Source: Candidatus Woesearchaeota archaeon
GTDB lineage: Archaea > Nanobdellota > Nanobdellia > Woesearchaeales > GW2011-AR4
DNA: 35,079 nt
Assembly: GCA_016192985.1 (NCBI GenBank)
Contig: JACPTC010000015.1
Span: 1 to 35,079 of the forward strand
Direction of reading: 5' to 3'
The translations under genes were made by a program, and so were the position numbers. Positions 3,813 through 13,856 of this stretch are shown here, in pieces (position 1 is the first letter of the stretch; the number at the start of each line of letters is the position of its first letter). The notes beneath the pieces were generated by a model. The model saw nothing but the letters and a program-made list of their open reading frames with translations. It was not told where the DNA came from and did no database searches.

Positions 3813-4932
3813 ATGCAATTCAAATTCAATATCCCAAACAAGATAACCCTGATAAGAGTAAGCTTGATTCCCTTATTCGCAGTAATACTTTTGATTGACA
3901 TCCCCTACAAAAACATTTTAGCTGCTTTTATCTTCGGCATGCTTTCTGTTTCAGATTTTTTGGACGGGTACTTTGCCAGAAAGAAAAAACAAGTAACTCA
4001 GTTGGGAAAGCTTATTGATTTCTGTTTCAGATTTTTTGGACGGGTACTTTGCCAGAAAGAACAAACAAGTAACTCAGTTGGGAAAGCTTATTGATCCAAT
4101 TGCCGACAAACTGCTGATTTCAACAGCATTGGTTTTTTTGGTTGGAAAAGGCGTTCCATTATGGATGGCTGTTGCGATAATTGCAAGGGAAGTCATAATA
4201 ACCTCAATAAGGGCTTATTTACTGCCAAGCAAAATAGTTGTTCCTGCAAGCAGTTTTGGCAAGGCAAAAACCGTTGTGCAGAGCATAGCAATTGTTTTTG
4301 TGCTTTTAAATCTGCCCTTAAGTTGGCATATGATGTTTGCCGCTGTTCTGCTTACTGTCTTATCAGGCTTGGAGTACCTTATGAGAATAAGGCAAATGAC
4401 TGGAAACAAGATTGTCAACCTGCCTAATTTAATCACTTTGTTTAGGTTCCTTTTAATTATGCCGTTTGTTTATTACTTTTGGAGCTCCGAAATTCACATT
4501 GCATTATTGATTTTCGCCTTGATAAGTTTAAGCGACAAGCTTGATGGAATCTCTGCAAGGCTGATGAATCAAAAAACTGAAATTGGCTCTGGGTTTGACT
4601 CTTTTACAGACTGGACTTTGATAATAACCACATTCATACTCTTGGCTATAAAAAACTACATCAATCTGTTCTGGGTAGTGCTACTTGTGGTGCCTTCAAT
4701 AATAAGCGGAGCAATGAAAATTATATATATAAAGAGGCAAAAGACAGTGCCTGTTACAATTGTTGCAAGGCTGAGTGTCGGAATGACTTATACAACCATA
4801 ATCTCAATAGTCATAAATTTTAGATACACTATATATTTACTTTTGGTTACTGTGCTTCTTGTTTATTTTGCAATGATAGGATATATTTTCAAAACTTTAA
4901 CCTTGCCTAAGAAGCCACATAACAAGCAATAA
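3813..4932 (+). pseudogene. pgsA: Two-domain CDP-alcohol phosphotransferase (PgsA-like), broken by 76-bp duplication
   Basis: ORFs 3813-4094 and 4015-4932 are one gene; removing one copy of a 76-bp duplication gives a 347-aa protein. Residues about 1-190 match PgsA: DGYFAR-x8-G-x3-D-x3-D, and the REVIITSIR stretch typical of phosphatidylglycerophosphate synthases. A second complete copy of the motif (DGISAR-x8-G-x3-D-x3-D) follows in a second CDP-alcohol phosphotransferase domain, which begins around NLPNLITLFR. The fused enzyme would attach two different alcohols, or the same one, to CDP-archaeol; glycerol-phosphate is likely for domain 1. The duplication covers the first motif. The downstream ORF keeps an intact motif behind a TTG, but lacks the first membrane helix. 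Substrate of domain 2 unknown. Confidence 0.85.
3944..4095. repeat. 76-bp tandem duplication with one mismatch
   Basis: Copies 3944-4019 and 4020-4095 differ at one base (AAAAAACAAG against AACAAACAAG, Lys to Asn). 76 is not a multiple of 3, so the frame is lost. Collapsing it restores the full-length enzyme. Confidence 0.95.
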
Positions 4933-12869: not shown

Positions 12870-13020
12870 ATATCAGGTAAGCCCAAACGCCTTTTAAAAT
12901 TATCCTTTTATGGTAAGAACAACGTAGATTTTCTGCGCAAAAATATTCATAGAAACCTATTTAAACAAAACTTTTAATCCAGAACATGATGCCTTCGTAG
13001 CTCAGTAGGTGGAGCGTACG

Positions 13021-13036
13021 AATCAAAAATTACGAA
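13021..13036 (+). other. tRNA-Asn intron 1 (non-canonical, 30/31)
   Basis: 16 nt. Its removal joins TACG to G and completes the 5-bp anticodon stem. The ends cannot be shifted without changing the mature sequence. Confidence 0.75.
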
Positions 13037-13043
13037 GCTGTTA

Positions 13044-13059
13044 TCCTACAGGGTTAGAC
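13044..13059 (+). other. tRNA-Asn intron 2 (canonical, 37/38)
   Basis: 16 nt. Removal gives loop CTGTTAA. A shift by one base (mature loop CTGTTAT) is also possible. Confidence 0.75.
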
Positions 13060-13065
13060 ACCGTA

Positions 13066-13092
13066 AGATAAGCTAAAAAACTTATCCGTTAA
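13066..13092 (+). other. tRNA-Asn intron 3 (anticodon stem/variable loop junction)
   Basis: 27 nt, containing the hairpin GATAAG-N8-CTTATC. Borders are ambiguous over about three bases because CCGTAA and CCGTTAA flank it. Confidence 0.7.
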
Positions 13093-13174
13093 AGGTCCGC
13101 AGTTCAAGTCTGCGCGAAGGCGTTTTATTTCTCCCAGCATAACTATTAAATATGGTATATTATATTCTCAGCTT

Positions 13175-13474
13175 GTGCAACAAATTAATTATAAGCCATT
13201 GAAGCACATCCTAGTCTGCACCAATGAAAGGGAGCGAGGAAAAGATTGCTGCTCTCACGTCAAGGGCTATGAAATATTTAGAGAATTAAAAGACTGGACA
13301 AAGGCAAATGGATTAGCATCTTCTGTCTGGGTCACGCGAACTGGCTGCTTGGGATTCTGCAACAATGTTGGCGCAACTGTTGTGATTTACCCCGACCAGA
13401 TTTGGTTCAAGGAAGTTAAGAAGGAAGAAGTGCAAAAGATAAAGGATTTTATTTTGAGTTCTTTAAATAAATAA
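13175..13474 (+). CDS. Thioredoxin-like [2Fe-2S] ferredoxin
   Basis: 99 residues with the cysteine pattern of the thioredoxin-like 2Fe-2S ferredoxins (COG3411/NuoE-like): VCTNERERGKDCC near the N-terminus and TGCLGFCNNVGATVVIYPDQIWF in the second half. These small electron carriers have no single known partner. The start is the GTG at 13175: a TATA-like ATTAAATAT at 13145-13153 lies about 22 bp upstream, consistent with a leaderless GTG start. It sits between two tRNA genes and has no obvious operon partner. Confidence 0.88.
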   Translation: MQQINYKPLKHILVCTNERERGKDCCSHVKGYEIFRELKDWTKANGLASSVWVTRTGCLGFCNNVGATVVIYPDQIWFKEVKKEEVQKIKDFILSSLNK

Positions 13475-13532
13475 AACTTTATAAACCAGCCAAGATTTCA
13501 AACTCCAGTTTCGGGCCTGTAGTTCAGTCTGG

Positions 13533-13608
13533 CAGCTGCCAATCAGTGAGATGCGAGTGAGCATGGTTCTTTGCGAACTCGCTCACAACTGACTGGCTCG
13601 CTGGACAA
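13533..13608 (+). other. tRNA-Ile D-loop intron
   Basis: About 76 nt. It contains pairing segments CCAATCAG/CTGACTGG (one mismatch) and CGAG/CTCG. The exact ends are uncertain by a few bases because the D-loop length is variable. Confidence 0.7.
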
Positions 13609-13627
13609 TTAGAATGCTCGACTGATA

Positions 13628-13647
13628 AACATTCATCAAATGATCGA
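13628..13647 (+). other. tRNA-Ile anticodon-loop intron (37/38)
   Basis: 20 nt. Removal restores a 7-nt loop closed by CTCGA/TCGAG. The position may be shifted by one base. Confidence 0.8.
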
Positions 13648-13856
13648 TTCGAGTGGTCACCAGTTCAAATCTGGTCAGGCCCATTTCTTTTCGATATACT
13701 CTTTGATAAAAACTCACATTTTGCATTCGGCAACTCATCGAAAAAATAAAAAATCTTTTAACTACCGCAAAGTTTAAATATAAGTTATTATTTTAAAATA
13801 GCAACACTTTTTAATAGCTTGAAATGTTCACTAAAATAAAAAAATTGGAGGGGTGC

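Follow-up and report, generated by a model that had tools for sequence, protein, structure and literature searches.

A tRNA-Asn(GUU) gene with three short introns in a woesearchaeote genome with a single alpha-type splicing endonuclease

Introduction

Multi-intron tRNAs have so far been found in a few archaeal lineages, where they have been tied to endonucleases with extra loops. In Thermoproteales and other Crenarchaeota, a tRNA gene may contain two or three short introns, which lie at non-canonical sites and have bulge-helix-bulge (BHB) or relaxed BHB motifs; the endonucleases of these archaea are (alpha-beta)2 enzymes with a crenarchaea-specific loop. In the Asgard lineages Atabeyarchaeia and Freyarchaeia, 92-95% of the tRNA genes are interrupted, over half of the tRNA genes contain more than one intron and many of the introns are non-canonical (PMC11291895). 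Relaxed tRNA introns are also present in the small archaeon ARMAN-2 (Ca. Micrarchaeum; PMC12397907). Its splicing endonuclease (EndA) of the epsilon-2 type is a fusion of three units with ~390 aa. The alpha4 EndA of M. jannaschii (1A79), in turn, has been described as narrow in specificity (PMC6379350).

The tRNA-Asn(GUU) gene reported here is located in a window of 35,079 nt, the whole stretch of DNA that was analysed, from a woesearchaeote genome. Multi-intron tRNAs are known in Thermoproteales and Atabeyarchaeia, and the gene therefore belongs to a known kind. Like the crenarchaeal lineages, the host has tRNA genes that contain two or three short introns, non-canonical sites and BHB or relaxed BHB motifs, but its EndA is a lone alpha-type enzyme without the crenarchaea-specific loop. 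It resembles the Atabeyarchaeia and Freyarchaeia in the interruption of nearly all detectable tRNA genes (>90%) and in its non-canonical intron sites, whereas these represent an unrelated phylum and the host is a DPANN archaeon with a small genome and BHB-like candidate introns in the rtcB genes of its sister species. ARMAN-2 is likewise a small archaeon with relaxed tRNA introns, yet the EndA of the host is one 198-aa unit that lacks the ARMAN-specific loop. The M. jannaschii enzyme is similar to the latter in its single unit, its length, the short loop at the specificity site and the acidic L10 loop, but the genome that it serves carries no comparable load of introns. What stands out is that multi-intron tRNAs occur together with a lone alpha-type EndA, perhaps also with introns in rtcB.

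Results

The gene was missed by ARAGORN and by a whole-window Rfam run with fast filters, and it was recovered by a local, more permissive Rfam search (cmscan, region 12900-13750). The tRNA model RF00005 matches exactly at 12991-13122 of the forward strand with 38.8 bits (E 1.6e-6), thus exceeding the gathering score of 29, and the alignment runs from end to end, leaving 74 nt of the anticodon region unaligned. An intron-aware parser, which allows introns and scores cloverleaf pairing as well as BHB geometry, ranked a three-intron solution first, in which all four stems are paired and the anticodon is GTT (Table 1). Excision of the three introns restores a canonical tRNA-Asn with the sequence GCCTTCG TA GCTC AGTAGGTG GAGC G TACGG CTGTTAA CCGTA AGGTC CGCAG TTCAAGT CTGCG CGAAGGC G. 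The earlier note on this DNA had proposed a tRNA-Asn with introns of 16, 16 and about 27 nt, two of them outside 37/38, in a DPANN-like host, and this reading is borne out: the covariance match falls at the exact coordinates, the top-ranked parse contains the same three introns and places two of them at 30/31 and 43/44, and all stems of the spliced 73-nt tRNA pair. The host is a woesearchaeote, and the closest relatives of its EndA (up to 87% identity) stem from genomes labelled Candidatus Woesearchaeota. A second intact tRNA-Asn(GTT), named in the same note as potential counter-evidence, did not appear, since a search of the host's own 77% complete assembly with the spliced tRNA-Asn returned the locus itself as the sole match.

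Table 1. Coordinates of the interrupted tRNA genes and the associated promoter-like box in the window
Feature	Position	Strand	Size and site	Evidence
pre-tRNA-Asn(GUU)	12991..13122	+	132 nt; 73 nt once spliced	RF00005, parser, orthologues
Exon 1: acceptor 5' strand and D-arm, positions 1-30	12991..13020	+		parser; 30/30 match to spliced query
Intron 1 (AATCAAAAATTACGAA)	13021..13036	+	16 nt, position 30/31	
Exon 2: G31 and CTGTTA (anticodon GTT)	13037..13043	+		parser
Intron 2 (TCCTACAGGGTTAGAC)	13044..13059	+	16 nt, canonical 37/38	
Exon 3: A38 and CCGTA (39-43)	13060..13065	+		parser
Intron 3 (AGATAAGCTAAAAAACTTATCCGTTAA)	13066..13092	+	27 nt, position 43/44	
Exon 4: variable loop, T-arm, acceptor 3' strand, discriminator G	13093..13122	+		parser
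BRE/TATA-like box GAAACCTATTTAAACA	12952..12967	+	24-39 nt upstream of tRNA-Asn	
tRNA-Ile(GAU), second interrupted tRNA in the window	13513..13683	+		cloverleaf and BHB parse
tRNA-Ile(GAU), D-loop intron	13533-13608	+	76 nt	central helix 4/4
tRNA-Ile(GAU), anticodon-loop intron	13629-13648	+	20 nt	central helix 4/4

Introns 1 and 2 each allow a single placement, and intron 3 has four shift-equivalent ones, of which only that at 43/44 shows BHB geometry. Parses with one or two introns obtained lower parser scores than the three-intron solution. A different splicing of the same transcript is very unlikely. If introns 1 and 2 were parts of one longer intron, the lower-scoring two-intron parse would leave an AGA anticodon loop that is seen in no relative. 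Intron 2 might alternatively be cut two bases earlier, thereby generating the loop CUGUACA with the anticodon GUA of a tRNA-Tyr, and the central helix of this shifted cut indeed pairs better, both in the window and in the related genome G022. However, uninterrupted relatives contain CTGTTAA, and the gene exhibits G1:C72 and G73, in contrast to C1:G72 and A73 in the host's own tRNA-Tyr(GTA); the tRNA-Tyr reading was rejected on the intact relatives and these positions.

The spliced tRNA-Asn was also searched in 20 genomes of the genus, and the relatives differ conspicuously in their intron sets. G024 harbors introns of 16, 15 and 15 nt at all three sites of the window, with different sequences. 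The syntenic locus of G022, which has its downstream gene in common with the window, contains introns at 37/38 and 43/44 and lacks the one at 30/31; the 43/44 introns of G022 and G024 both have 15 nt. A D-loop intron is accompanied by one at 37/38 in G006 and is the only intron in G010 and G007, whereas G025 and G005 have an anticodon-loop intron and G020 has none. Introns of 14-17 nt in the anticodon loop, where intron 2 lies, are present in G006, G022, G024 and G025. The anticodon arm predicted for the window after splicing (positions 26-48) recurs without any difference in G010, G006, G022 and G024, and it is uninterrupted in the DNA of G010. The BRE/TATA-like box recurs letter for letter upstream of the tRNA-Asn genes of G010, G024 and G007.

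The host genome is a fragmented draft (1.26 Mb, 65 contigs, 77% complete), which might suggest a decayed pseudogene or an assembly artefact whose insertions are errors or signs of degeneration instead of introns. This explanation is extremely improbable. Differing intron sets around an identical exon arm in the relatives are explained neither by an assembly error nor by a decayed gene, and another species possesses diverged introns at the same three sites. The pairing of all stems, the conserved promoter-like box, the lack of another tRNA-Asn in the host's own genome and the similar interruption of 18 further tRNA genes also argue against it. The comparison with the relatives instead indicates that the introns of this tRNA-Asn gene belong to a turnover of tRNA introns, by gain and loss, across the lineage.

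The BHB motif was defined as a 4-bp helix with flanking 3-nt bulges at both splice sites, and it was assessed by pairing the exon 4-mer at -6 to -3 with the intron 4-mer at -6 to -3, with shuffled introns as the null. Intron 1 has a perfect central helix (CGTA/TACG, 4/4; P 0.00015), and intron 3 combines a central helix of 3/4 pairs (ACCG/CGTT) with a 6-bp inner helix (P 0.00035); the corresponding helix at 43/44 in G022 is perfect (ACCG/CGGT, 4/4). Intron 2 shows a relaxed motif with a central helix of 3/4 pairs (CTGT/TTAG) and an inner helix of 3 bp, which is not significant alone (P 0.07). The motif that had been anticipated at each junction is thus clear for introns 1 and 3 and weak for intron 2. 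The same kind of shuffle test resulted in a combined P of 4e-7 for 12 single-intron tRNAs of the host genome. The BHB pairing of introns 1 and 2 is not favoured when the unspliced transcript is folded (ViennaRNA), whether freely or with the cloverleaf constrained. In the free fold, the D-arm adopts a different structure, and intron 2 preferentially pairs with the D-arm, both in the window and in G024; with the cloverleaf constrained, intron 2 still folds otherwise than the BHB. The inner hairpin of intron 3 is the only robust BHB element in free folding.

Interrupted tRNA genes are the rule in the host. In the 77% complete genome, 19 of the 20 parsed tRNA genes contain introns, tRNA-Val(CAC) being the sole exception, and two of them (tRNA-Asn and tRNA-Phe) have three introns each. 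The intron counts of tRNA-Ile(TAT) and tRNA-Glu on contig C10, which were parsed partly by eye, are less certain. The sites comprise the D-loop, 30/31, 37/38, 43/44 and the T-arm, and the host's own tRNA-Lys carries a 30/31 intron and its tRNA-Phe a 43/44-type intron with the same geometry as in tRNA-Asn. The long D-loop intron of tRNA-Ile(GAU) in the window is able to form a long hairpin. The T-loop introns of tRNA-Arg(CCT) and of its neighbour, read as Ile(TAT) (loci L014 and L015), begin with the same sequence AAAACAACCTTTTCTTTGCTCGC, which suggests that one intron may have spread between tRNA genes. A genome from another family of the order (G012) yielded 40 tRNA matches, mostly of intact length; 12 and 18 matches were obtained for the genus members G025 (93% complete) and G009 (99%). 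This suggests that introns are the reason why automatic annotation of such genomes seems to miss many tRNAs. Elsewhere in the window, a 76-bp tandem duplication with one mismatch (3943-4095) breaks a CDP-alcohol phosphatidyltransferase-like frame (ORFs 3813-4094 and 4015-4932); a genuine disruption, an intron and an error of the assembly are all conceivable.

The host genome harbors one EndA gene, whose alpha-type product of 198 aa consists of a single unit with the conserved Tyr, His and Lys motifs and an acidic L10 loop. Its nearest solved structures are the alpha subunit of N. equitans and the alpha4 enzyme of M. jannaschii. The specificity-loop segment (GSLLDDGRVQL) has no insertion and is similarly short in 36 relatives. 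The crenarchaea-specific loop of A. pernix and the ARMAN-specific loop of ARMAN-2 are located in this segment (PMC12397907). EndA contains neither of these loops with their conserved Lys. These results do not support the broad-specificity, ARMAN-like epsilon-2 enzyme that the earlier note had expected: that type consists of three fused units of ~390 aa, and the EndA of the host is a short, loop-less alpha-type protein. A weak PF02778 match on contig C56 was rejected as an EndA subunit, as it matches HTH regulator families. The draft genome G022 contains two strong EndA genes (contigs C16 and C44; loci L023 and L030) and is possibly a mixture of strains.

Judged from its sequence, EndA probably acts as an alpha4 homotetramer. 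PF01974 and the NCBIfam beta model NF007085, which have a limited sensitivity to divergent beta subunits, detect the alpha gene alone in the genus. As in M. jannaschii, EndA has retained an acidic loop (DDEGD) at the L10 site, where the alpha subunit of N. equitans is two residues shorter; such a loop is in keeping with a single chain that takes on both roles. An (alpha-beta)2-like enzyme might cut the same introns, with a beta subunit that has diverged beyond detection or is missing from the assemblies; these results make this alternative rather unlikely, if worth keeping in mind. In its favour, EndA comes nearest to the N. equitans alpha subunit, the catalytic chain of an (alpha-beta)2 enzyme, and its C-terminal sequence RWLRP is similar to the Trp-bearing terminus of alpha chains with broad specificity; the phmmer matches include no crenarchaeal beta chains, and a divergent beta subunit could thus have escaped detection. 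With EndA as a lone alpha-type enzyme, the lineage is an apparent exception to the proposed rule that links specificity loops and intron diversity, unless a diverged beta subunit exists.

The gene for the ligase RtcB was not found in the 77% complete assembly of the host, and it is present in 15 of the 19 other genomes of the genus that were searched. Its frame is intact in G002, G005 and G027. In G022, G003, G010, G006, G001, G032, G039, G025, G011 and G023 (loci L111-L119 and L130) it is broken by insertions of 12-33 nt at four sites in the region PDGHWGYGFPIGG...SPGGIGFDI, which represents the active site. All of these insertions add stop codons or shift the frame, types A and D match BHB geometry (P <= 0.0004), and the stem pairs are kept despite sequence changes. 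The insertions in the sister species are possibly BHB-like introns. Long insertions near the same region in the rtcB genes of G020 (L121) and G033 (L122) maintain an open frame of ~1000 aa and are probably inteins. Neither tRNA introns in Woesearchaeota nor introns in rtcB were found reported in the open-licence papers searched.

Discussion

The locus very probably represents a functional woesearchaeote tRNA-Asn(GUU) gene with three BHB-type introns, at 30/31, 37/38 and 43/44, which would be cut by EndA and whose exons would be joined by RtcB. The gene is predicted to be transcribed, and the lone alpha-type EndA would cleave each intron at a bulge-helix-bulge or its relaxed form. RtcB, which we infer from the sister genomes, would ligate the four exons, and the product would be a normal tRNA of 73 nt. 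Since introns 1 and 3 build their central helices with bases of the anticodon stem, these helices cannot coexist with it, and the outer helix of intron 2 is the anticodon stem in its complete form; introns 1 and 3 would thus be removed first and intron 2 last.

The chances are about even that the lone, loop-less alpha-type EndA handles non-canonical and relaxed introns throughout the genome, with up to three per tRNA, and that the sister species also splice their rtcB mRNA. If true, this would run counter to the proposed rule by which intron diversity follows the acquisition of an ARMAN- or crenarchaea-specific loop, and the splicing of rtcB mRNA could make the supply of the ligase self-regulating. 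The near-universal interruption of the detectable tRNA genes together with a loop-less sole EndA makes the idea of an enzyme-intron co-evolution testable with one recombinant protein, and the tRNA-Asn genes of the genus, with zero to three introns, represent a natural series for studying the gain and loss of introns.
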